This document shows, piece by piece, positions 8,395-60,100 of a DNA stretch of 64,000 bases (positions within the stretch are counted from its first letter, which is position 1; each line of letters begins with the position of its first letter). This DNA comes from Liolophura sinensis. Taxonomy: Eukaryota; Mollusca; Polyplacophora; Chitonida; Chitonidae. The position numbers were made by a program, and so were the translations under genes. The DNA lies in NCBI RefSeq assembly GCF_032854445.1, contig NC_088300.1:15939570-16003569 (forward strand). Direction: 5' to 3'. The notes beneath the pieces are model-generated. The model ran no database searches, was not told the origin of the DNA, and worked only from the letters and a program-made list of their open reading frames with translations.

Positions 8395-9105
8395 ACATTT
8401 TCTACAGCACAGAGCTACAGGTGTAAATCAACATTGTACAGCCCGGCTTCAGCAATAATTGTGTGTAACTGATGTGTGCAAGATGTCGACAAAGCAGGGT
8501 TGTGATAGATGAAACAGGTTTAAACACTTTGCAGTAGAGATAATGTGTGTAAATGTTCTACAGCACAGAAAAGGTGTAGACATTATGCAGTAGAGATGTG
8601 TGTAAATGTTCTACAGCACAGAAAAGGTGTAGACATTATGCAGTAGAGATGTGTGTAAATGTTCTACAGCACAGAAAGTGTGTAGACATTATGCAGTAGA
8701 GATGTGTGTAAATGTTCCACAGCACAGAAAAGGTGTAAACATTATGCAGTAGAGATGTGTGTAAATGTTCTACAGCACAGAAAAGGTGTAGACATTATGC
8801 AGTAGAGATGTGTGTAAATGTTCTACAGCACAGAAAAGGTGTAGACATTATGCAGTAGAGATGTGTATAAATGTTCCACAGCACAGAAAAGGTGTAAACA
8901 TTATGCAGTAGAGATGTGTGTAAATGTTCTACAGCACAGAAAAGGTGTAAACATTATGCAGTAGAGATGTGTGTAAATGTTCTACAGCACAGAAATGGTG
9001 TAGACATTATGCAGTAGAGATATGTAAATGTTCCACAGCACAGAAAAGGTGTAGACGTTCTACTGTAAATGTTCTACAGCACAGAAAAGGTGTAGACACT
9101 ATGCA
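8395..9105. repeat. 53-bp minisatellite downstream of IARS2
   Basis: About ten copies of a unit close to GTGTAGACATTATGCAGTAG plus 33 more bases repeat with a 53-bp period; consecutive starts at 8574 and 8627 give the spacing. The unit weakly resembles the GATGTAGACGTTACACAGC part of the last IARS2 exon, so the array may have grown from a duplicated exon end. It ends in another exon-like piece at 9105-9165. Open frames across it only reflect the repetition. Confidence 0.88.
8428..8513 (+). pseudogene. Decayed downstream copy of the IARS2 terminal exon
   Basis: The words ACAGCCCGGC, TGTGTAACTGATGTGTGCAAG and GACAAAGCAGGGTTGTGATA follow the same order as in the true terminal exon at 8290-8358, including the bases that carry the stop codon. 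Substitutions and a frame break make it non-coding. It is a tandem duplicate just outside the gene and may be transcribed as part of the 3'UTR. Confidence 0.72.
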
Positions 9106-17100: not shown

Positions 17101-20100
17101 CTCAAATTGAATGAATACAATACTAGTCATTTCAGTCATGCATGTGATCACGAATAAATGTTGCTGGCCTTGTTATTCAAGTAGATAGAAGGCATTGTTG
17201 TTTTATGAGTTGCATGAGTTGCTTCACTTTGCAGTGGGCAGGAGATCCCCATTATATGTACAAAAGTGACTGGATTGATTGATGTACTCAAGAATTTTTC
17301 ACCTATAAGACAGCTGGGCCCTGAATCACAAAGCGACGCAAAACATTTTTTTATTGTACATTTGTCTGTACGTTATTTTGTATGTCACTACTACTGTGCC
17401 ATTCTTCTATTTGTGTGATTATTGTACATGTACATGTTTCTTTGTGAAACTGGGACCAGGGTTTATGGGCGGAGGGAACTAGAGAATCAAGAATAAACCA
17501 TCGCCTTAGGTAAGGTACACGACAAACCTCCTGTACTAAAGCTGCAGCGGAATGAAACAGCCAGAGAGCTGTATCTTAACATTCCACGTCACTGGTCAAT
17601 GGCCCAATAGTGGCCCTACAACAGCAAATCAGGGCTGTATTTAAACATGCCACCTCACTGGTCAATGGCCTAACAGTTACAGCAAATCAGGGCTGTATTT
17701 AAACATGCCACCTCACTGGTCAATGGCAAGACAGTTACAGCAAATCAGGGCTGTATTTCAACATGCCACCTCACTGGTCAATGGCCCTACAATAGCAAAT
17801 CAGGGCTGTATTTCAACATGCCGCCTCATTGGTCAATGGCCCTACAACAGCAAATCAGGGCTGTATTTCAACATGCCACCTCACTGGTTAATGGCCCTAC
17901 AATTACAGAAAATCAGGGCTGTATTTAAACATGCCACCTCACTGGTCGATGGCCCTACAACAGTACATCAGGGCTGTATTTCAACATGCCACCTCACTGG
18001 TCAATAGCCCTAAAGTTACAGTAAATCAGGGCTGTATTTAAACATGCCACCTCACTGGTCAATGGGCCGACAGTTACAGTGAACAGGGCTGTATTTAAAC
18101 ATGCCACCTCACTGGTCAATGGCCCTACAACAGCAAATCAGGGCTGTATTTCAACACGCCACCTCACTGGTCCATGGCCCTACAACAGCAAATCAGGGCT
18201 GTATTTCAACACGCCACCTCACTGGTCAATGGCCTGACAGTTACAGCAAATCAGGGCTGTATTTCAACACGCCACCTCACTGGTCAATGGCCCTACAACA
18301 GCAAATCAGGGCTGTATTTCAACACGCCACCTCACTGGTCAATGGCCTGACAGTTACAGCAAATCAGGGCTTTAACTATCAACAAATACTGTAATTAGCA
18401 TGTTTGCAAAGTGTTTATGCAAACATATTCGAAAGGCATTGTTCTGTGTTGACTGATAAAATTATAGTTTTTGTGAAGCCCTGACAATGGCCACTCCAAC
18501 CAATAGGTTTGTCTCCAAAATGAAATTAAAAATGTGCATAAAGTGCACTGGAAGTTGTTCTTTCATACGTGACAAGGTTGAGGAATGATTGTATTCATTC
18601 ATCAGTGTAGACTGATCAAATTACACTTTTTGTGAAGCCCTGATATTGGCCAATCCAACCAATTTCCTTTTGTCTTCAAAATTAAAATGTACATAAACTG
18701 CACTGAAAGTGGTTCTTTCATATGCAAAATGGTTGAGGAATTAGAGTAATGAGTTACCTGATCAAACAAATGCACTCCATAATAATAACATATCAACAAT
18801 AGTTGCAGATCTGATGTATGAGACTGCATGAACATTTTCACTGAAAATATTTTTGCCTTTGGCTGAAGTGCAGTGAAGGTCCAAACTCACGTCTTGTAAT
18901 ATTTCCAGAAAATCACAGGTAAGCCTCAGGAAATCCACCATCAGTGTATCACTGATTCCAACCTCCTGGTGAACACACATAAAGAACACGGCTTACACTT
19001 AGCAGGCGACAAAGATGTAATAAAAAAATATGTGTTGAATTCATAAGAAACACAAGAAACCGTGACAATTACATGAAACATGTACAAGCAGAATATTTGG
19101 TCAGTTCATTACCTTGTACCTGATATAACATGCACTTAATGAGCCGTCACAAGCTAAAGGATTTATTTATTTATTAAATTGGTGTTTTATGTGGTTCTCA
19201 AGAATCTTTCACTCATCCAAAGATAACAAGCATTTTGTCGGGAGAAAATCGAGCAGAGCCTGAGGGAAACCCATGAGCATCCGCAGGTTGCTGACAGACC
19301 TTCTCATGTACGACTGGAGATGAAGCCAGCATGAGCTGCACTTAAACTCACAGCCGCTGCACTAGTGAGAGCCATCACAAGGTACAGGTGTTCAACACGT
19401 GGCTTAAATATAATGAACATACATACTGAACATTCAAATGCTAATTACCTTTCTGCAAAGCCGTTCCTTTGGAGGTTTCCCAACCTGAAGAAAACATTCA
19501 ATCATCATTCTAGCAATATGCAGTTATTTTAAGCGATGTACATGTATTTAAATGTCGGACTTGTTTGAAATTCCTTTGTTTCATTAATCAAATTCGCTAT
19601 AAATGAGAGATACAAATACTGCAACAAAATATCGTTTTGGATATTGCTTTCTTTAAAACATATAATACCTGAATATAATCTTCTTCATATAATATTTTTA
19701 TGGAAAATACACTTTCATTTTTCACCATATTAACCTTTTCCATGAGATATGCTGCAGCCATCATCCTCTTGGCAATAAACATGTGCCAGAACATACTGCA
19801 GACGCCTACAAAACACAACCATAAATGGCAACCACACATTAATTAGACAAAGCACTCATTAATTTATTCAACATTTAATGAGATAGAGGCAATGCTACTT
19901 GGATATACTGATGCCTATATTCCCTCTAAGTATGAAAGCCTTTCCTATTAAAAGACCTTAACTTTGAATGGATTCCTTTAAACTGTCATAATATGGTAGC
20001 AACACACTCATGTAAATATATGCTGAGACACAGACACCTACCTTGTCTCAACACTGCATTCTGAACCAGCTTCATAAAGTGTAAAGAGTTTTCTAGGCAC

Positions 20101-23100
20101 ATCATTGACTGAAGAGAAAAAGAAATCTGGATGTATACACGAAAAGCTGATACATAAGTTAACCCTGAGATTCCCAACCTTTGAAAGCAAAACTCCAAAC
20201 ATGTTCTGAAATCAGTGGTATTTTGGTATAGTTGGGTGTGTAAAAAGACACTTTCAGAAGCACACAATGGCCTTACAATTATACTTTTAACGCCCACAAG
20301 TTTTTCTGATAAGAAATTAATCAAGCTTCACTAAAAACTCATAAGTGAGCATACAAGGCGGATGAATAAATGAGAATCAAGTAAAATGTGTGACCTTAAA
20401 GAGGCTAAACTTTAGGTGAAATACAGTAGTATGTCTGTAGCCCATTCTTTCCATTTTTATTTTTCCATATTCAGATGTATGTGTCTTATGTGAAAAATAT
20501 TACACCTGTAAATTTTGTCCCCGTACAAGTACAGAAGCTATAAATTTTCTCCAAATGATGACAAAACGTCCTCTGGTGTATGATGAGGATAACACAGATA
20601 TATCTGTGTAAACTGAGGAATCACTGACCTCGGGATCCCTATTCCACTGAGCAGCATACTCCCATGCACAGTTAGCCATGAGTACATCATTCTCCAGGCT
20701 GTATGGGAAGTGGGACTGTAACTCTGTGAACTGTGACCTCAGTCTGTCTGACACACCAGAGTTCTCTCCCTTCTCTACCTCTTCTGTCTCCATTGAGCTC
20801 TCCTCCTCAGGGGTTTTATGAGGACTGTTAAAAACATGTGAGGAGAGGCCAGTGCGACAGACATACCGGGCTACAACCTCGGGAACATAGCCTGGAAACA
20901 GAATAAGTAAGGAGAGTAATGAATACAATCATTCCGCAACCTTTTCGCATATGAAAGAACAACTTTTAGTGCAGTTTATGCACATTTTTCATTTGATTTT
21001 GGGGACAAAACTATTGTTTGGATTGACATTGTCAGGGCTTCACAAAAAGTATAATTTGATTAGTCAACACAGAATGCCTTCAGAATCAGCTTAATTGAAC
21101 ACCTTTCAATCGTGCAAAAAGGTTGAAAAATTACAGAAAATGCTTTGTAGCATTGTACAGTTCAGTAAATTCAGAGAATGAGTAATATGAAATCCAATTA
21201 CAAATTTTAAATGTAAAGTTTTATAAGACTTGCATTTTTACTAAATACTTACAATGTGTTACGCACAGCCAAGACTATTGCACCAATGCAATGGTTATCG
21301 TGTTTATTCCTTTAATGATTTGCTTGCACATTTGACTAACCTTTTCCTCCTTCCAGAAACTTGGCCACTGACACACCTAACCCATTCACACCCGCCTCAG
21401 AGTGGACTGGTCCTACATTGTCTGAGCTTGGTGTGATTTTCAGAATGGTGCTTATGGCCAGGACATCCTCCAGCTGTTTAATGAGGTTGGTCCATTGTTC
21501 TATGTCTACAGTAATGGATTCCCAGTCGGATGTGTCCATGTTCTCATCTGGAGGTGTACTGGCAGTGTCTGCATCAGGATCCTTTAATAACAGTCCCGCA
21601 TTTCAATGTATTTTATGATAAAATCAGACAATATGTCCAACAACTTATAAATGGCAACTTGGACTATCTCAGATATAGCACTTTAGAAAATCTGTGGTCT
21701 ATCAGTCACATGTAGTACACGTTCATGCATGTTGGCATAATACTCCTGTGGAGGGATGGACTCGCCCTGCCACAAGAAAACACAGTATTTACACACACAA
21801 CGAATGAATCCTCGTTGTCAGATGACAGAAAAATGATTAAAGACGATGTATAAACCTGAGTATACATACATGCTTACTAACAGCCAAATCTGCTGGTATG
21901 TATAAAAATGAGTTCACAGAAAAGTGGACATTTTGCATCAAACTTCATGAAGTACACTAACCTTAGCTGTGGTCTGGTTCCGTAACAACTCTAAAGAAAC
22001 ACTTCTTCCAACGACAGCGAGAAGAATGGCAGCACAGGCTCTCTCTGAACGGCTACATGAGTCTCTTAGCTTTTGCCACCAGGGGGACACAGTATTGGGA
22101 TCCACAATCACATCTGACGTTTCTTAAAACAGATCCCATAAAATATTTCTCTAAGAATTCCAAGTACATGTACATACAAATACAGGTACAGAGAGTTTAA
22201 CTGATAATCTGTGGACTGACAGGAGGAGTGTTCATTTGGTCATTTTCTTGACTAAGCAATGTATCCTGATAATTTGTAAGTTATTGGTAACATAGTGATA
22301 TGGTCATCTGCCAATGAGTCACCTGTGCAACGTAACCATCACACAGGTAATGTCCTTGACCAGGTAACACAATGGCTCACCTCATGCCTGACAGGCAGTT
22401 AATGCAGTGAATCCACTGACTGAGAACTACAGTCTTCCTTTGACTGCCAGTGATGGGTCACCTATAATAACTCACCTGTCACAGGTAAAACATTTAGTCC
22501 AGCAATTCTGATGCCTCAGCCACATTTGCACTGTGACCAAAAACCAGCTTCACATTCAACCTTGATGAAACCTTTTAGTTCACAGGAGGAATTAATATAT
22601 TTTCACCTTAAGTCTTAACACACATGGCCACCATGGCCTGCGTCTCGCACGCCAATCTACTGTACTCACCAGATGTCACCATAGACAATGCCGACAAAGC
22701 CATAAGTATGGTCAGGTATAACTTACCTGTCATACAGGTAACAGATTTGATCAGGTAATACAAGCAGCTCTTTGACTGAGGGTTACGATCATCTTCTGAC
22801 AGCCAATAACTCACCTGTCATACAGGTAATAGCTTTGATCAGGTAATACAGTGGCTCTATTGACTGAGGGTTACGATTGTCTTCTGACAGCCAGTAACTC
22901 ATCTGTCATACAGGTAATAGATTTGATCAGGTAATACAGTGGCTCTATTGACTGAGGGTTACGATTGTCTTCTGACAGCCAGTAACTCACCTGTCATACG
23001 GGTAATAGCTTTGATCAGGTAATACATCCACTCTATTGACTGAGGGTTACGATCGTCTTCCTACAGCCAATAACTCACCTGTCATACAGGTAATAGCTTT

Positions 23101-26100
23101 GATCAGGTAATACAGTGGCTCTATTGACTGAGGGTTGCAATCGTCTTCTGACAGCCAGTAACTCACCTGTCACACAGGTAATAGCTTTGATCAGGTAATA
23201 CAGCGGCTCTATTGACTGAGGGTTACCATCATCTTCTGACAGCCAGTAACTCACCTGTCATACAGGCAATAGCTTTGATCAGGTAATACAGCGGCTCTAT
23301 TGACTGAGGGTTACCATCGTCTTTTGACAGCCAGTAACTCACCTGTCATACAGGTAATAGCTTTGATCAGGTAATACAGCGGCTCTATTGATTGAGGGTT
23401 ACGATCGTCTTCTGACAGCCAGTAACTCACCTGTCATACAGGTAATAGCTTTGATCAGGTAATACAGCGGCTCTATTGATTGAGGGTTACGATTGTCTTC
23501 TGACAGCCAGTAACTCACCTGTCATACAGGTAACAGCTTTGATCAGGTAATACAGCAGCTCTATTGACTGAGGGTTACGATCGTCTTCTGACAGCCAGTA
23601 ACTCACCTGTCATACAGGTAACAGCTTTGATCAGGTAATACAGTGGCTCTATTGACTGAGGGTTACGATCGTCTTCTGACAGCCAGTAACTCATCTGTCA
23701 TACAGGTAATAGCTTTGATCAGGTAATACAGCGGCTCTATTGATTGAGGGTTACGATTGTCTTCTGACAGCCAGTAACTCACCTGTCATACAGGTAATAG
23801 CTTTGATCAGGTAATACAGCGGCTTCTTTGATTGAGGGTTACGATCGTCTTCTGACAGCCAGTAACTCACCTGTCATACAGGTAATAGCTTTGATCAGGT
23901 AATACAGCGGCTCTATTGATTGAGGGTTACGATCGTCTTCTGACAGCCAGTAACTCACCTGTCATACAGGTAATAGCTTTGATCAGGTAATACAGTGGCT
24001 CTATTGACTGAGGGCTGCGATCGTCTTCTGACAGCCAGTAACTCACCTGTCATACAGGTAATAGCTTTGATCAGGTAATACAGTGGCTCTATTGACTGAG
24101 GGTTACGATTGTCTTCTGACAGCCAGTAACTCACCTGTCATACAGGTAATAGCTTTGATCAGGTAATACAGCGGCTCTATTGACTGAGGGTTACGATCGT
24201 CTTCTGACAGCCAGTAACTCACCTGTCATACAGGTAACAGCTTTGATCAGGTAATACAGCAGCTCTATTGACTGAGGGTTACGATTGTCTTCTGACAGCC
24301 AGTAACTCACCTGTCATACAGGTAACAGCTTTGATCAGGTAATACAGTGGCTCTATTGACTGAGGGTTACGATCGTCTTCTGACAGCCAGTAACTCACCT
24401 GTCATACAGGTAATAGCTTTGATCAGGTAATACATCGGCTCTATTGACTGAGGGTTGCGATCGTCTTCTGACAGCCAGTAACTCACCTGTCATACAGGTA
24501 ATAGCTTTGATCAGGTAATACATCCGCTCTATTGACTGAGGGTTACGATCGTCTTCTGACAGCCAGTAACTCACCTGTCATACAGGTAATAGCTTTGATC
24601 AGGTAATACAGCGGCTCTATTGACTGAGGATTACGATCGTCTTCTGACAGCCAGTAACTCACCTGTCATACAGGTAACAGCTTTGATCAGGTAATACAGT
24701 GGCTCTATTGACTGAGGGCTGCGATCGTCTTCTGACAGCCAGTAACTCACCTGTCATACAGGCAATAGCTTTGATCAGGTAATACAGTGGCTCTATTGAC
24801 TGAGGGCTGCGATCGTCTTCTGACAGCCAGTAACTCACCTGTCATACAGGTAATAGCTTTGATCAGGTAATACATCGGCTCTATTGACTGAGGGTTACCA
24901 TCATCTTCCCACAGCCAGTAACTCACCTGTCATACGGGTAATAGCTTTGAACAGGTAATACATCCGCTCTATTGACTGAGGGTTGCGATCGTCTTCTGAC
25001 AGCCAGTAACTCACCTGTCATACAGGTAATAGCTTTGATCAGGTAATACATCGGCTCTATTAACTGAGGGTTACCATCGTCTTTTGACAGCCAATAACTC
25101 ACCTGTCTATAGGTAATAGATTTGATCAGGTAATACAGTGGCTCTATTGACTGAGGATTACGATCGTCTTCTGACAGCCAGTAACTCACCTGTCATACGG
25201 GTAATAGCTTTGATCAGGTAATACAGCGGCTCTATTGACTGAGGGTTACGATCGTCTTCTGACAGCCAGTAACTCACCTGTCATACAGGTAACAGCTTTG
25301 ATCAGGTAATACAGCAGCTCTATTGACTGAGGGTTACGATTGTCTTCTGACAGCCAGTAACTCACCTGTCATACAGGTAATAGCTTTGATCAGGTAATAC
25401 AGCGGCTCTATTGACTGAGGGTTACCATCGTCTTCTGACAGCCAGTAACTCACCTGTCATACAGGTAATAGCTTTCATCAGGTAATACAGCGGCTCTATT
25501 GACTGAGGGTTACCATCGTCTTTTGACAGCCAGTAACTCACCTGTCATACAGGTAATAGCTTTGATCAGGTAATACAGCGGCTCTATTGATTGAGGGTTA
25601 CGATTGTCTTCTGACAGCCAGTAACTCATCTGTCATACAGGTAATAGATTTGATCAGGTAATACATCCACTCTATTGACTGAGGGTTACGATCGTCTTCT
25701 GACAGCCAATAACTCACCTGTCATACAGGTAATAGCTTTGATCAGGTAATACAGTGGCTCTATTGACTGAGGGTTACGATTGTCTTCTGACAGCCAGTAA
25801 CTCACCTGTCATACAGGTAATAGCTTTGATCAGGTAATACAGCGGCTCTATTGACTGAGGGTTACGATCGTCTTCTGACAGCCAGTAACTCACCTGTCAT
25901 ACAGGTAACAGCTTTGATCAGGTAATACAGCGGCTCTATTGACTGAGGGTTACGATCATCTTCTGACAGCCAGTAACTCACCTGTCATACAGGTAATAGC
26001 TTTGATCAGGTAATACATCGGCTCTATTGACTGAGGGTTGCGATCGTCTTCTGACAGCCAGTAACTCACCTGTCATACAGGTAATAGCTTTGATCAGGTA

Positions 26101-29100
26101 ATACATCCGCTCTATTGACTGAGGGTTACCATCGTCTTCTGACAGCCAGTAACTCACCTGTCATACAGGTAATAGCTTTGATCAGGTAATACAGCGGCTC
26201 TATTGACTGAGGGTTACGATCGTCTTCTGACAGCCAGTAACTCACCTGTCACATAGGTAATAGCTTTGATCAGGTAATACAGCGGCTTTATTGACTGAGG
26301 GCTGCGATCGTCTTCTGACAGCCAGTAACTCACCTGTCATACAGGTAATAGCTTTGATCAGGTCATACATCGGCTCTATTGACTGAGGGTTGCGATCGTC
26401 TTCTGACAGCCAGTAACTCACCTGTCATACAGGTAATAGCTTTCATCAGGTAATACAGCGGTTCTATTGACTGAGGGTTGCGATCGTCTTCTGACAGCCA
26501 GTAATGTGTTAAGAGGTCCTATTAAAGACAACAAAGGAACATGCAGCTTAAGATGATGAAACATTACATGTGCTTCTGAACAGTACAATAACTTGAATAG
26601 CCTGGGAGAACAATAACTGTCTTTGATTTTGCAAAAGGGTCTTCAAATGTTTTGAAATGCAGTTCAGTAACAATACATCCATATTATCAAGTTATAGCAG
26701 GAAAATGAGCTCAGTTAAATATGGAGTCAAATCAATGCATTTGTATGAATAATGTGTTCCCATGTAATGACAAATGCTAAGTTTGCTTCTTTCTCAATTA
26801 CTTAACATAATTAAATTCACATGTATTATTACATACCATAAGTTGGTCAGGTCCTAGGCCAGAGCTCTGCAGAACAACGCTCAGGTCTGCTGGCAAAACT
26901 CGTCTGTCTAGGCATGCCCCAAACACTAAGCGTCCTGTGAAACAAAAGTGAAAACATACTTCCATAGTTTCTGTGATATTTCCACTCCAGACTGGGTGCA
27001 AGTGATATCCACATCTTGGCAGGAAAGTCTCTTGTCAGCCATCTTGGATAGTGATTTTAACACCAGAATGTGTAAGAACTATGTTACATTAAGGCTGTCG
27101 ACAGTAGGTCACACAACCTTTAATTAATGTTACAAACAAGTCAGAAAAATCAGAGACAAAAGCTTAAACAAAATTACACAAAAGTACATGGAATAAATGC
27201 GTGCCATAAAAAAACAGTGAAGATTTCTGCTGAATAGGAGTTTCTTAGAAAGTCAATTATGGTCACCAATTTTTACATGAAACAAACTATGTTTTCAGGA
27301 AAAAGTTGCTATTGGTAGTTGCCCTTACCCAGGGATATTTTCCGCTCCTCACTCATGTGCTTGCCCAGGGTCAGTCCTCCATGTTTGCCAATGTGCGACT
27401 CTCGGGAGTGATGGTCCAGGTGAAAACAGTGCAGGTAAGGAACCACATTCAGACAGCTGTTCAGGTCAAAGGACACATGACCACCTGCACTTTCTTGGAC
27501 ACAGCTGTGAAACTGTTCCACCTGAGATAACAGGTGTTCAATCTCTGACTGATTGACTAACAGCAGCGATGTGAGGTGCTGAAAATATCATACACAGCTG
27601 TGAAACTGTTCCACTTGAGATAACAGGTGTTCAATGTCTGACTGATTAACTCACAGCAGTGATGTGAGGTGCTAAAAATATTGGGCATTCGTCAAAAAAT
27701 CTTCAAGACCTGGTCATTACGCTTTGCCCACACCAAAGAGTTCTGAAGTGGCATGTTATCAAGCAATTTCAGTTAAGTATCATATGTTTAAACAGCCTGA
27801 GCTGTTTAACAACGACAGGCTAAACTTGATCAATAGATTTATTGATTTGACTGTTCTTTAATGTGCACTTGATGGAGGTTGTAACATTGTGTGCAACTGA
27901 CATATTGTTGTGTCATATTTCATATGTATTGATCTCTTTATGACTCCTGTGACCCCAGATAACCTCTCACCTCAGACAAATTTTCTGAGTGCGTTGCCTC
28001 TTGTGTACTAAGGCTATTCAGGGAGATGTAAGTCTGTAACAGAGATTCCTGTCCCTGACAAAACTGGAACAAGTGACGCCCTTCTACATCCATATCGGCT
28101 TCAGCTAAAATGTTTACACAAGAAAACGAAAAACATCAAACCTTGACCATGACCAAAGCATTTAAAATTAGTGGATTAACAACAATAAACAACTCAGCTA
28201 AATGTTATTCACTGAAACATGCAAAATTTATTAGCTTTTTCCATTTTTTTCCGTTATCTTATTGTCACAGTGCATAGGCCTACACGTAAGCTTAAATGAT
28301 CTGTAAAGAAGAGCCTTCTTGTGAAAAAATAAGTATGCAGTTATCATTGCTTATTTATCTGATTGGTGTTTTACTCCGTACTCAAGAGTATTTCACTTAT
28401 ACAATGACGACCAGTATTATGGTGGGAGGAGCACAGCAGAGTTCAGGGCAGACCCACAGCCATTCACATGTTTATGCCTTTGTCTGTGTCGCAGACTTAC
28501 CAATGTCATGGAGCCTCAAGGACACAGCCTTGACCAGTCTTAACATGACAGCTGGACTAAGGTAACGGGTATTCAGAGCCTTCTCCAAAGCCTACAACAC
28601 ATCATCCACAGAATGAAGATCAAACAAATCACACAACGTCTACTTTAATCAAAGAATTCAAACATCAGACAAAATTTTAAAGATCACTAAAACTCATTAC
28701 CGTTTCCAGTTTTGGACACAATGTGGTTGCTTTGTATTTAAGTACAGTCATACTCATCACTAAGACCAAGTTCAGTGGCATTCAAATTTAAACAATTGCC
28801 ATCAGTCTATTACATAAATTTTGTGGACTTCATCCTGCTATTCCATCGCCAGTACAAATTATATTATGTATTACAATTATCAATAAACATGGAGTTCTTG
28901 AGAAATACATTTTCAAGGTGTTTCATTTTTTTTCTTACAAAGTTAATGTAGAATTTCTGCATAAAAGCCTTGTAAAACAATAATTATACTTTGTTTTAAA
29001 TTTAACTACAATAATAATTACTGTTCCATTAACATTAAGCAAGGACTGTGAAATTGTCAAATTGTGTCTGACTGTCACAACTTATTCATAGGTATGCCAT

Positions 29101-35100: not shown

Positions 35101-38100
35101 AAAAAGATAGGCAAGTGATCCTACTGAGCCTTAAAGATGCAACATCATTTTGCACTGGGATCATGTTTGTTGTCATAATGATGCAATTACTTGGAAACTT
35201 CACATTCTTACCACCAACAAATGCCTTACCTCTTGCTACCTGGTTCCTGCAGGCTCTCAGAGACTGAACAAAGCTAAATCCATCAATGGTGACCAATGCC
35301 TTCTTATACAGGATAATCAGCTCCTCATGCTGGAAAACAACACAAGTTCATAATGCCATCATTACATAATCACTCCAATAAGCATTAAAGGAGAAGAAAA
35401 CTTAAATATCAAACAAATACCATTGAAAAAAGCATGCATTTCCTCACAGGTGCATGCCATAAAAGAATTCTAATATATAGCTCAAGCTGAAGTCAGCGCC
35501 AAAATCCGCTGTGGGCGACTTCATTTTGCCTCAGAACTAGTTGGAACCCGCCGAAGTGCAGTTCGTACATTTCTGGTAGAACTCTTCTTCCCTGAAGGTT
35601 TCGAACAGTACAGTTCGTTTTCCGCTTGACGATTGGGAAACTGGAATGTTGGATGTAGGTGTGTTGGAAGTTTACACAAACAAGCCAGCAGATTTAACGA
35701 CTCTCATTGGCTGAGAGGCAACACACCCCCAACATAAATTATAGGGTGTTAAAGACGAAGGATGCGATGGACTTGGCGATTTATGCCAGCTCTGCAGTTT
35801 TCAGGCTTTACATGTATGGCGAGGAAAAATGGCAAAATTATGCAGCAGGCACCACCAGATAGAAAGAAATGTGCTCTTTTCAGCCTATAGTGTCATTGTT
35901 TTAAGTTTTCTTCTCCTTTGACATGTTTAGAGGTGTGAATTTCCTTATGACAATAAAGCAAAAATTACTTCCTCACAATCTGTTCAACCTTAGTCAGATA
36001 ACACCTGGTACATGAGAAGGTAGCCACAGGCCATGCCTATACATGTATGTAACTTATTTACTAGTACATGTTCATGTATTTGTACATATTCAAGTAAATA
36101 TCTATATGTGTGTTCATGAACAATTGAACACAGAGTTACATCTTACATGTTCAGCTTTTTCCAGGTAACATCTATTTGCATTTTCATGAACAAATTCAAA
36201 ATTGCTATCTTACCTGTTCAGCCATACTGAGGTACATTTAACACTTACATGTATATGAATGTTGATGAATGGGTGAGCACAGGATTTGCATTTTCACAAA
36301 CATATTCACACTTGCCAGACCTTACCTATTCACCCATACCCAGGTATTTATTTATTTATTTATTTGATTGGTGTTTTACGCCAGGTAACACCTATCTGAA
36401 TGTTCATGAACAGATTCACACTTGCCACATCTTACCTGTTCAGCCATACCCAGGTAAAACCTACATGAATGTTCATGCACAGATTCACACTTGTCAGATC
36501 TTACATGTTCAACCACACCCATGTAACGCCTACCTGAATGTTCATGTACAGATTCACACTTGCCACATCTTACCTGTTCAGCCATACCCAGGTAAAACCT
36601 ACATGGATGTTCATGCACAGATTCACACTTGTCAGATCTTACATATTCAACCATACCCAGGTAACATCTACCTGAATGTTCATGAACAGATTCACACTTG
36701 TCACATCTTACCTGTTTAGCCATACCCAGGTAACCCCTACCTGAATGTTCATGAACAGATTCACACTTGCCAGATCTCACCTGTTTAGCCATACCCAGGT
36801 AACCCCTACCTGAATGTTCATGAACAGATTCACACTTGCCAGATCTCACCTGTTCAGCCATACCCTGGTAACACCTACATGAATGTTCATGAGCAGACTC
36901 ACACAGATCTTACCTGTTCAGCCATACCCAGGTAACACCTACATGAATCTTCAAGAGCAGACTCACACAGATCTTACCTGTTCAGCCATACCCTGGTAAC
37001 ACCTACATGAATGTTCATGAGCAGACTCACACAGATCTTACCTGTTCAGCCATACCCAGGTAACACCTACAAGAATGTTCATGAGCAGACTCACACAGAT
37101 CTTACCTGTTCAGCTATACCCAGGTAACACCTACATGAATGTTCATGAGCAGACTCACACAGATCTTACCTGTTCAGCCATACCCAGGTAACACCTACAA
37201 GAATGTTCATGAGCAGACTCACACAGATCTTACCTGTTCAGCCATACCCAGGTAACACCTACAAGAATGTTCATGAGCAGACTCACACAGATCTTACCTG
37301 TTCAGCCATACCCAGGTAACGAGAAGCTTCATACGTCCTGCATTTCAGCTTTATCACAGGTTCTTCATGAAGTAATTGTGACATCAATAATGTGCCATTC
37401 TGTAATTTGGAAAGAAGCAAAATATTAATGATAACGATAAACCACAGCAAGTCCATTACAGTACAGATGAACTGAGCATTACACGAAGTTTATCACAGAA
37501 GCAAACAAAGGTCCATAACTCTTGTATAAGAAGAATTTCAAGGTTTCATTTCTTATTTTTTTTATTTACACTGAAAAAAAGAGAGAAGGTGACAGAAAGA
37601 GATGAGAAAATTGGTGATCTCAGCACACGCTCTGTTTTAATTGAAAGGTTAGCTATTCACAACACTAAAAAAATACGCATGTGATATCTGGCCAACTACT
37701 ACGTCTTGAACTCTAAATCTTAATATAACCCACCTCTGTATAGAAACGAACATATCCTGTGGAAAACCCCACCAGTATACATGTCCAATCAGGACCTCCT
37801 TGTGTGCTCCTGTGAGAAGAATCAGAAACAAGTCTTGATACTGACAAGATAATATAGCTAGAGTTTTTTCCTGACAAATGCAAAAACATGTATTACTTTA
37901 TGACTGCATTTCACCTAAAGTTTGTCCTGTAAAAATGCACCACTAGAAACACGTAAAGGCCTTAAAATGATTCTTTTGATGCCAACAATGAGATATTACT
38001 CAAACTTCACAATAAAGTTTTTAGAAATATAATGGCCCTATAATGCTATGACCCAACTAGAAGCCAGCAAAAAATGCATCACTTGAAAAAAGGAAAAATT

Positions 38101-55788: not shown

Positions 55789-55999
55789 ATAGGCATTTGT
55801 AATACATGATTCACTGAATTTTCAAAAAAATGTGGCTCTCTCGTCTGACATCTTTGATTTTGCCATAGGATCATCAGCTATGTAACCTTGATCTGCATAA
55901 TTGTGGTAAATTATCTGCTTTTCTGCTTAGCATAGGAAATTACTACAGCTGGAACACCTGGATAGCACATTGCTTTCAAGATAACTGCTTAGTTGAGAG

Positions 56000-57180
56000 G
56001 TACACCTTGCCTTAGGGAAGACCATGTGATTGATAAGAACACATTACTTTAGGGATGACCATGGGGTTGAGAGGAACACATTGCTTTAGGATGACTGTGA
56101 TTTAGAGAAAACATGTTGCTTTAGGCATGGCAATTTGATTGAGAAGAACACATTTCTTTAGGGATGACCAACCATGTGATCGAGAGGAACACAATGCTTT
56201 AGGGATGACCAACCATGTGATCGAGAGGAACACATTGCTTTAGGGATGACCAACCATGTGATCGAGAGGAACACATTGCTGTAGGGATGACCAGCCTTGT
56301 GATCGAGAGGAACACAATGCTTTAGGGATGACCAACCATGTGATCTAGAGGAACACATTGCTTTAGGGATGACCAACCATGTGATCGAGAGAAACACATT
56401 GCTTTAGGGATGACCAACAATGTGATCGAGAGGAACACATTGCTTTAGGGATGACCAACAATGTGATCGAGAGGAACACATTGCTGTAGGGATGACCAAC
56501 CATGTGATCTAGACGATTACATTGCTTTAGGGATGTCCATGTGATTGAAAGGAACACATTGCTTTAGGGATGACCATAGGGTTGAGAGGAACACATTGCT
56601 TTAGTGATGTCCAAACATATGATCAAGAGGAACACACTGCTTTAGGGATGACCATGGGATTGAGAGGCACACATTACTTTATGGATAACTATGGGGTTGA
56701 GAGGCACACATTACTTTATGGATGACCATGGGGTTGAGAGGCACACATTACTTTATGGATGACCATGGGGTTGAGAAGCACACATTACTTTATGGATGAC
56801 CATGGGGTTGAGAGGCACACATTACTTTATGGATGACCATGGGGTTGAGAGGCACACATTACTTTATGGATGACCATGGGGTTGAGAGGCACACATTACT
56901 TTATGGATGACCATGGGGTTGAGAGGCACATATTACTTTATGAATGACCATAGGGTTGAGAAGCACACCTTACTTTATGGATGACCATGGGGTTGAGAGG
57001 AACTTGTTACTTTATGGATGACCACGGGGTTGAGAGGAACTCATTACTTAATGGATGACCACGGGTTTTCGCCATAGGGTTGAGAGGAACTCATTACTTA
57101 TGGATGACCATGGGGTTGAGAGGAACTTGTTACTTTATGGATGACCCTAGGGTTGAGAAGCATACATTACTTTATGGGTG
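56000..57180. repeat. Compound minisatellite with 41-bp and 37-bp blocks
   Basis: The first block (about 56000-56650) repeats a 41-bp unit with TTGCTTTAGGGATGACCAAC and GATCGAGAGGAAC; starts at 56231 and 56272 fix the period. The second (about 56650-57180) repeats a related 37-bp unit, TTACTTTATGGATGACCATG plus GGGTTGAGAGGCACACA; starts at 56704 and 56741. The units are clearly related, so the second block is a variant that expanded separately. Confidence 0.92.
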
Positions 57181-60100
57181 ACTTTGTGGTTAAAGGATTA
57201 GTGTCCAGATTTAGCTACTTGTGTTAAGTATAAAGATTATAACCAGTTTAACAGTATTCACCAGGAAGGCTTCTGAGAAAATTAATTATGACTTTAAATC
57301 CACCAAAAACAATAGATTTACTACCCTAGCCAATCTCCAGCCAGCCATCCAGTAAAGCTCAGTGAGTGATAGATGACCAACCCAAGGCTTGCTGGCCTAT
57401 ATATCCTGGGAATTCGTATCAGAACAATGTCATTTTCAAGATGGATTCTAGCTTCACAGAAGCTAATGTACTCATGTATGAGTTTGAACATGTGGTGGAC
57501 GACATTGAAGTTCTCATTTATGACACTGACATACGACTCAGGTTAGACTTCAGATTACAAGGTTTTAGACGTTGAATTTGATCTTTGTACATGCATTTCC
57601 AACTGCACTGGCAATACGGACTTGTAAGCTATAGCTTTATCCTTTGCTACACTGTAGGTTGTTTGTATGTCAGATTTAATATTTACTGTTCCTTCCTTCT
57701 GTCCGCATCACAATAAATATTTTATTCCCCAGAGTGGATTTATCTCAAAAATGGGTTTGCGGGAATAAATGTTCGTGCATTTAATCAAGGAAATACTGGA
57801 AAAAAATTCTTCCACCTGTTAAATTTTCCTAGTTAAATTATGTCTGGAATTGTTAGGCATGTCAAACAGGTGTTATGAAGGGCGGCTTTAATCCTCTTTA
57901 GTTTCCTGCGGTGTCGCTAATCATCGTAATCTGGATCAGAGATTAAAACAGTGTTGGATGGTTTATCACTATAAGATTGCTTGCGCACCTACCCTGAGCA
58001 GTATTCAAAGAGATGTCACTTGTTTTTGCACCTTTTGATGAGTAATTTTAATCAATAACCAAGATTTCTACCCAAGTCATTAATTCTTGATTAATGTAGT
58101 CAAGCAACATGATTAGTCTTCCACTGTTTTTGGTTTCAATTGTCCCCTGTAACCTGTCTGAAACCGCTAGTATAGCCGTAGCTGTCAAGCGACCATTGCA
58201 TGACCTTTCACTTTTACTGGCATACAGAATATTGATCAAGCTAATGACGAATGACCTCTCACTTTTTTTTTACACCCACCAAGCTCTATCACCAAGCAGT
58301 GATCCTTGCATAGGCCCTATTAGTGAAATATAAACCCTCCTTAGACACTATAGAATCTCTCCTTTAGTTTTAAAACTCGTGTAAATGCGATCAACTTTAC
58401 AAGCAAACTGTTTAAAGTCATTCTGATTCCCGCTGCTTCTGGTGTTTCATTGCTGCTTAATAGCCAACAAAATATTTTTACAAAAACGTTTTCATGCGTA
58501 ATATAGTATCCTAGCTGTAATATAGGCTTCGTCGTTGTTATACTTCGTACGGTACTGTACTGCTACAACAGCTAAGATGTCACATAATAAGGGCAGGTGC
58601 CTGTGATTGTACAAAGGTGGCATTTCCAACAATTTGTTCAAAGCTCATTCATTGGTCCACAGGAGAGACCCAGCCAATGCGATAGCCTGTATCATAGCGA
58701 CATTCACTAGAAAGCACCAGAAACTTTTCTTTCACTTTTACCGGCATACCGAAGATCGATCAAACTAAGGACGATGGAACACCCACTTGGTTTACTCACA
58801 GCACCCTAATTCACCAGAGTTTATATACACATCTTATTTCTCCTCCCTGCTGTTAAAATTTAGCTTGTCCCATTGGACTTTCTTATCCCAACTTTTGCCA
58901 TCACGTCAAAGATTTCACTCTCAGTTATTTCAACCCTGCTGTATTTCATTGTTTGTCAGTCCGTTTATGCTAAATAATTTGTGTGCAATGTAGGATAAAA
59001 CCAAACAGTGATTCATTTCAAAGTTAGTTCAGAGTTTATTTTGATCTCTGTTTGTCAGTTTAGAGGTTCTAGTGTTTGTATGTTTTGAAAGTTATCATGG
59101 CGAATAACAACAACGCCCATTTGACATAATGTGCAAACAGTCGAGCAGAAGGCACATTGTGGTGATGGTTATGGTCGTAAGTCCTCTTATTGAGATTTGA
59201 GAAAAATTGGTCATTGGAATATTATTATTGTGACTTTCTTATGGGAATCCAAGCAGATTGGATTACAGGGGTCATGGCGAAAATCGGATAAGGGGTCAAA
59301 AGTAAAGCCCTTCTGTATAGCTTCATGTAATTCTAAGTGAATTTGACTGTTTGACAAATACCTTCGGGAAGTGTTTATTTTACAAACATGTACTTTCTTT
59401 AGACGTTTGCTGTAGTGTTAGACGTTGAATCCTGTTCCCAAAAATGTATTCTGGCTTGCTTACATGAGTGATTATGTGATTAGCAGAGATTTAATATGTT
59501 TCACCAGTTTGTATTGTGAGTCACAAAAACTGCATGGTGCTTGACTAGCTGTAAGGCTCCACATCCCTCAGGTTAGAATGTCCCACTGCTGAGGTATGTT
59601 CCGAAGTACATGTTTTAGTGATGTGAACACCAGGGGGAGGTATCCAGGGCTATGAGCCTATCACTATGGCCACTTGATATATGGACTGGAGTCTGTGGAG
59701 AACTTAATGGAATATCAAGGTTTTCTTTACATCAGAAGTGTTCTTAGTGTTATCCAGGCTGGTCCTGTTGCCAGGGATCAGAAATGTACATGTGTGTATG
59801 TGTTATCTGAAGCCCCCCTCCACCTTTCGTGGAGACTGCATACCCTTCACGTGCCCATAACATATTCTCATTATATGGTCTTGTGTACAAATTTCACCTG
59901 TGCTGGATGAGCATTAAAGTCACAAGACACTACTGATTTATGTTTAGTCTGTTATGGTTGACTTGTGTTTTAGGCATTGGGTGGTAAAGATAAGTGTGAT
60001 AAATTTTGCAAGTTCCAGACCCCTAGTTAGGATTTGGTGAAGGCATGGGGGAAGAGCGTCCCAGCCAAATGAGCCGGGCATCCTCCGGAAGACTTGCATT

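Follow-up and report, generated by a model that had tools for sequence, protein, structure and literature searches.

Minisatellites that lie across exon-intron boundaries were described in amphioxus genes and named mirages (PMC3087553, PMC3902484). They were found in Adh3 of two amphioxus species, as cited by the globin paper, and in the globin gene BflGb9, where the 3' exon boundary is duplicated (PMC3087553), and troponin C and PGBD5 were added to the list (PMC3902484). Length instability was reported, and the Adh3 data together with globin reverse transcription-polymerase chain reaction were said to suggest that splicing is undisturbed (PMC3087553). Two further systems are related: the Rogers model, in which introns are gained when AGGT segments duplicate in tandem, with ATP2A1, fission yeast genes and potato RdRp as examples (PMC4974935), and human UBC, in which a tandem array of AGGT sites works as both donor and acceptor (PMC10809524). 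Here we describe an array of 43 units at the 3' boundary of a RAB3GAP2 coding exon in a 64,000-nucleotide stretch of a chiton genome (NC_088300.1, positions 15,939,570 to 16,003,569; the window). Elsewhere this genome contains a single cluster with eight matches to molluscan haemocyanin domains. The array is very probably a nearly neutral minisatellite of the mirage type that would be tolerated since the copy adjacent to the acceptor keeps its donor.

Comparison with amphioxus mirages

Like the amphioxus mirages, the chiton array consists of minisatellite-like tandem units (88 bp, 43 copies) that span an exon-intron boundary, with splice signals in many of the units. The authentic boundary stands at one end of the array, as indicated by the match of the unit to 83 nt of exon plus GTGAG and by Pfam and reading frame evidence. 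The interior is homogenised whereas the cluster boundary is diverged, as in mirages. The differences are the host, a mollusc rather than a cephalochordate, the composition of the unit, of which 83 of 88 nt are exonic, and the copy number, 43 compared with 6 and 3 units in amphioxus BflGb6 and 3 in PGBD5 (PMC3087553, PMC3902484). The initial annotation had stated that no repeat class built in this way was described, a statement that the amphioxus mirages contradict. No mirage-type array in molluscs was found in a literature search by titles and abstract starts, and the exact phrase "mirage minisatellite" was not found in the open literature, most subscription journals being outside the scope of both searches. 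The kind of repeat is already described; new are its occurrence in the chiton Liolophura japonica and its scale (1637 tandem-donor matches in the genome compared with 219 for the reversed motif). The features at the array are as follows (slashes mark splice junctions; exon numbers are labels of the initial annotation).

26837..26934, minus strand: upstream RAB3GAP2 exon (exon 20), ending in phase 0 at ATG/GTATGT; acceptor TTTGTTTCACAG, donor GTATGTAA
26422..26518, minus strand: RAB3GAP2 exon seeding the array (exon 21), 97 nt, ending ACAG/GTGAGT; acceptor TTCCTTTGTTGTCTTTAATAG
22719..26501, minus strand: 43-unit array, exon end plus GTGAG, 88 bp (one unit 87 bp); CAGGTRAGT in 40/43
22339..22506, minus strand: decayed older unit copies past the distal array end, found by BLAST with the consensus unit
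21962..22122, minus strand: downstream RAB3GAP2 exon (exon 22), starting AAG/AAACG; Pfam RAB3GAP2_C positions 46-89

The array is built from the end of a RAB3GAP2 exon

Parsing resolved the array into 43 head-to-tail units running from 26501 down to 22719, each 88 bp long except copy 16, which has 87 bp. Tandem Repeats Finder returned a period of 88, 43.0 copies and 94% matches over 22719-26504. The initial annotation had described about 43 copies of an exon 3' end with its donor, which is confirmed. The 97-nt exon ends in ATGACAG followed by GTGAGTTA, and copy 1 takes its exonic part from the final 83 nt of this exon, the unit being completed by GTGAG. The division of the unit into 82 plus 6 nt given previously is one of several equivalent divisions, since the boundary can be placed at any of a few neighboring bases: TTAC occurs in the exon at the start of the unit and again after GTGAG, and the breakpoint shares this ambiguity.

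The host gene was identified as RAB3GAP2, as first proposed, through matches to Pfam RAB3GAP2_N and RAB3GAP2_C. The upstream, 97-nt and downstream exons form one open frame across their exact edges, and the joined peptide scored 58.2 bits against RAB3GAP2_C, covering profile positions 1-89 in one stretch of 85 residues. When the 97-nt exon was left out in a hypothetical in-frame join, the score fell to 39.7 bits and the match started at position 45. True skipping produces a frameshift that leads to stops, as the first codon of the downstream exon is completed by one nucleotide of the 97-nt exon. The upstream and 97-nt exons without the downstream exon gave no RAB3GAP2 match in Pfam, so that the evidence for the exon lies in the gain in the join and in the frame. 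Since the 97-nt exon raises the score of the join and keeps the frame, it supplies conserved coding sequence, in agreement with the earlier view of the unit as exonic and in phase, and joining the outer exons directly would break the protein. A search of the Protein Data Bank for RAB3GAP2 relatives found none, its 7 matches (E about 0.3) being to aminotransferases and taken as chance.

The relation of the array to the surrounding exons also bears on whether the intron itself is new, that is, whether the array arose within one ancestral exon that gained an intron by AGGT tandem duplication, as in the Rogers model. Both cases involve tandem duplication of a segment with a splice signal, and an open frame does run 38 codons past the distal copy. 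Pieces of this distal frame placed before the downstream exon scored 43.3 and 43.6 bits (one with a mistyped residue) compared with 41.1 bits for the exon alone, a gain of 2-3 bits that was taken as chance. However, inserting the open frame just past the distal array end between the exons lowered the Pfam match from 59.8 to 45.8 bits (earlier joins made by eye), and the direct join matches positions 1-89 unbroken. The array is therefore intronic, not exonic. Unlike in the Rogers model, the Pfam and frame tests indicate that the intron is not new and that the duplicated donor was already present. A nascent intron inside one exon was rejected on the Pfam joins, which gave no sign that the intron interrupts a formerly continuous exon, and we regard such an origin as extremely unlikely.

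Variation among the copies

Mean pairwise identity among the copies was 94.6% (41/43 copies, with copies 16 and 43 dropped). By ungapped count, copy 43 at the array edge has 14 differences from the consensus and the others have 0-7, except for copy 16, whose 16 differences reflect its one-base deletion. Beyond the distal end, BLAST with the consensus unit detected decayed copies at about 22339-22506 (E values of 1e-7 to 1e-4). When 401 bp of the array were searched against the whole genome, the best-scoring candidates yielded 14 matches, all within the RAB3GAP2 array. The copy number of tandem arrays is often wrong in assemblies, which counts in favor of a false expansion or a chimera, as does the 14X coverage of this assembly (PMC11068029). 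On the other hand, its HiFi reads average 8,347 bp and exceed the 3.8-kb array (PMC11068029), and the copies differ mutually to the extent given above. We assign an artefact of assembly next to no probability.

Excluding copies 16 and 43, 31 distinct substitutions were counted in the coding part of the unit, of which 7 are synonymous and 24 nonsynonymous or stop, two of them being stop codons. With a neutral synonymous expectation of 0.25, the variants are as expected without coding constraint, and constraint is not measurably present.

Splice donors and acceptor-like sites at the array

The donor 9-mer CAGGTRAGT is intact in 40/43 copies, with CAGGTGAGT in 39 of the 43 and CAGGTAAGT in one, so the dozens of near-consensus donors reported earlier for this one intron are indeed present. 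The three exceptions, copies 10, 32 and 41, carry an identical G-to-A change that converts GT to AT; the diverged edge copy 43 carries GTAAGT. By a crude pyrimidine count, the best acceptor-like site lies upstream of copy 1, at 26519 (14/19 pyrimidines), and another AG, also upstream of copy 1, is at 26547 (13/19), whereas the AGs inside copies 1 and 2, the two copies scored, have 8-11/19. This accords with the proposal of the initial annotation that the first copy has the acceptor. Reading frames were computed for donors 1-6: with donor 1 the exon stays open, and with each of donors 2-6 translation meets a stop at codon 52, in copy 2; the donors beyond 6 share the reading path of donors 2-6.

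Such a series of donors might have a regulatory role, in which competing donors divert some transcripts into stop-containing, decaying mRNAs and copy number tunes the output of RAB3GAP2. The presence of CAGGTRAGT in 40/43 copies and the early stop reached from donors 2-6 would fit this, and the donor columns are nominally less variable than the rest of the unit (1/11 variable columns versus 29/77; p = 0.09, not significant). However, the proximal donor is the one nearest the real acceptor and gives an ordinary 97-nt exon, the variation of the units fits neutrality, and amphioxus mirages were said not to disturb splicing (PMC3087553, PMC3902484). Similar arrays at unrelated genes, described below, also argue against a device specific to this gene. 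A regulatory function is thus unlikely in our judgment.

The same motif could alternatively serve as a ladder for stepwise intron removal, since splicing of donor 1 to the AG in whichever copy would silently rebuild the junction between exon and donor. AG/GTRAG is present in 40/43 copies, the intact units ending in AC AG/GTRAG, and the dual-specific arrays of human UBC and VCX3A likewise consist of tandem units each with AG/GT (PMC10809524). The units of UBC are coding and are spliced within, whereas those of the chiton are apparently intronic and their acceptor role is putative. The sequence before these AGs is pyrimidine-poor (9/19 in both copies scored, 1 and 2) compared with 14/19 at the real acceptor, and dual-specific or recursive use of the ladder appears even less probable than regulation.

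Proposed origin of the array

The mirage reading is supported by the match of unit and exon over 83 nt plus the first intron bases, by the exon tests, by coding variants that show no constraint, by donor columns that are not significantly more conserved than the rest, by the open exon obtained with donor 1, by arrays of the same build elsewhere in the genome and by the amphioxus precedent. We infer the mutational mechanism, the near neutrality and the use of the first donor. A short segment running from the coding exon's 3' end into the start of the intron would have been duplicated in tandem, probably at the common TTA(C); the presence of TTAC in both the exon and the intron start makes a duplication assisted by microhomology plausible. 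Expansion to 43 copies may then have proceeded inside the intron by unequal exchange or slippage. A duplication over an exon end and its donor would leave a complete exon and donor at the acceptor, and any further copies would become intron. Unlike duplications within an exon, those at the boundary would be invisible to the protein and could grow and decay like other minisatellites. The acceptor is expected to pair with the first donor, all other copies leaving with the intron, and the array would persist because the exon end and donor of the acceptor-adjacent copy are both still intact. The array is probably of little effect on RAB3GAP2.

A second array in RAB3GAP2 and other arrays in the window

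The RAB3GAP2 array is not unique in the chiton genome, as there is a second in the same gene and there are others at unrelated genes. The second array is seeded by another exon of RAB3GAP2.

37298..37399, minus strand: another RAB3GAP2 exon (NGTLL...YLGMAEQ/GTAAGA), its 3' end seeding the second array
36381..37320, minus strand: second RAB3GAP2 array across a donor, about 14 copies of a 64-bp unit

Its 64-bp unit comprises 23 nt of exon end and 41 nt of intron. The exon at 37399-37298 matched RAB3GAP2_N with 65.1 bits after a by-eye join with the next exon and with 25.2 bits alone (cut-off, 26.6). Leaving aside a CACT microsatellite, the window holds five arrays of more than 5 copies in 64 kb, together about 11% of its length, and at such a density one would expect some arrays to arise at a splice site. 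The other large arrays in the window are at 8511-9056, 17611-18371 and 55992-57182, with units of 53, 55 and 37-41 bp, respectively; no donor-type motif was evident in them when their units and sequence were read by eye.

Donor arrays across the genome

A motif of three CAGGTRAGT sites spaced 60-90 bases apart gave 1637 matches genome-wide compared with 219 for the reversed motif, and the single motif gave 19904 compared with 7580. The donor excess over the reversed control is thus 7.5-fold for the tandem and 2.6-fold for the single motif. On contig C1, among the first 100 single motifs listed for each, 50/100 donors and 15/100 controls fell in groups with at least three members and gaps no larger than 500. 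The numbers of groups were small: 7 in 2.98 Mb for donors versus 3 in 6.64 Mb for controls. The acceptor-type motif TTTYCAG in three copies gave 3790 matches versus 1363 for its reversed control; as no single-motif count stands alongside these figures, no inference was drawn from them.

Several of these observations count against a purely tolerated, neutral array. Among the tandem matches listed (100 of 1637, grouped by eye), 13 tandem-donor places and no reversed ones lie within 6.95 Mb of the start of C1; the control tandem matches listed (100/219) begin at 8.1 Mb and form about 9 places over the whole of C1 (also grouped by eye). Since the tandem excess is larger than the single excess and 13 places stand against none, 5' splice sites may be favored sites of array growth, beyond mere tolerance. 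In the RAB3GAP2 array itself, the single variable site among the final 11 unit columns is a weak hint of constraint (p = 0.09). The tandem excess leans toward some donor preference, yet it mixes copy number with event number, the tandem-motif matches being non-independent events. The fact that the first 7 Mb of C1 holds the 100 matches listed of 1637 suggests that arrays are concentrated near this end; as this chromosome end is possibly array-rich, the place counts are not extrapolated to the genome. A stronger proposal would combine both ideas, with chiton 5' splice sites as preferred birthplaces of minisatellites genome-wide and AG/GTRAG ladders serving as dual-specific or recursive splice sites, through which array length would influence intron removal and, over time, intron creation. 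We consider this combination unlikely, and the nearly neutral mirage-type array remains the preferred account.

Nineteen donor arrays on C1 were inspected, comprising the 13 tandem places and six additional groups, one of which is just a pair; for one of the 19 (L046), the flank sequence stopped short of the array start. Peptides from 10/19 were scanned against Pfam, of which 3 were above the cut-off, 1 was below it and 6 had no match. The three Pfam-positive exons, each ending at the first donor of its array, matched SUFU, an SNF2-related domain, which we take to be from BTAF1, and Fe_hyd_lg_C, presumably CIAO3. The match below the cut-off was to alpha-L-fucosidase (E value of 9e-4). Two of the six peptides without a Pfam match appear to resemble TRPM and KATNIP, and the exon of the TRPM-like peptide sits between two arrays. 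The exonic part of the unit was 14 nt for SUFU (by our scoring), 21 nt for SNF2 and 35 of 40 nt for the Fe-hydrogenase-like exon. The fucosidase and TRPM-like arrays include only 2-3 exon nt each, their unit being intron plus donor. At the remaining C1 arrays no exon was identified, and the array at about 3.806 Mb seems to sit several hundred bases deep in an intron.

Some of these loci deserve a brief description. At the SNF2-helicase exon end, at about 4.178 Mb of C1 (L042, L040), a 48-bp unit with 21 nt of exon and 27 nt of intron is repeated about 39 times. The array at the Fe-hydrogenase-like exon, at about 5.4716 Mb (L054), has a 40-bp unit composed of exon and GTGAG only, as in RAB3GAP2, and TTATCACT is common to its exon and intron start. 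At about 6.949-6.951 Mb (L055), two donor-containing arrays lie about 1 kb apart near putative TRPM-channel exons. A 112-bp array of 9.7 copies at about 2.76 Mb (L037, 2101-3184) has a unit holding the acceptor-like TTTGTCCCTTGTAG on the strand of the neighboring donor array and is possibly a 3' splice-site counterpart of the donor arrays.

Significance

With these findings, minisatellites across exon-intron boundaries are known from a mollusc as well as from lancelets, and they are suggested to be common in the mollusc. They provide many natural multi-donor introns in which the choice of the spliceosome among dozens of near-identical donors could be tested, and boundary-spanning arrays are candidates for the material from which introns arise through tandem duplication.

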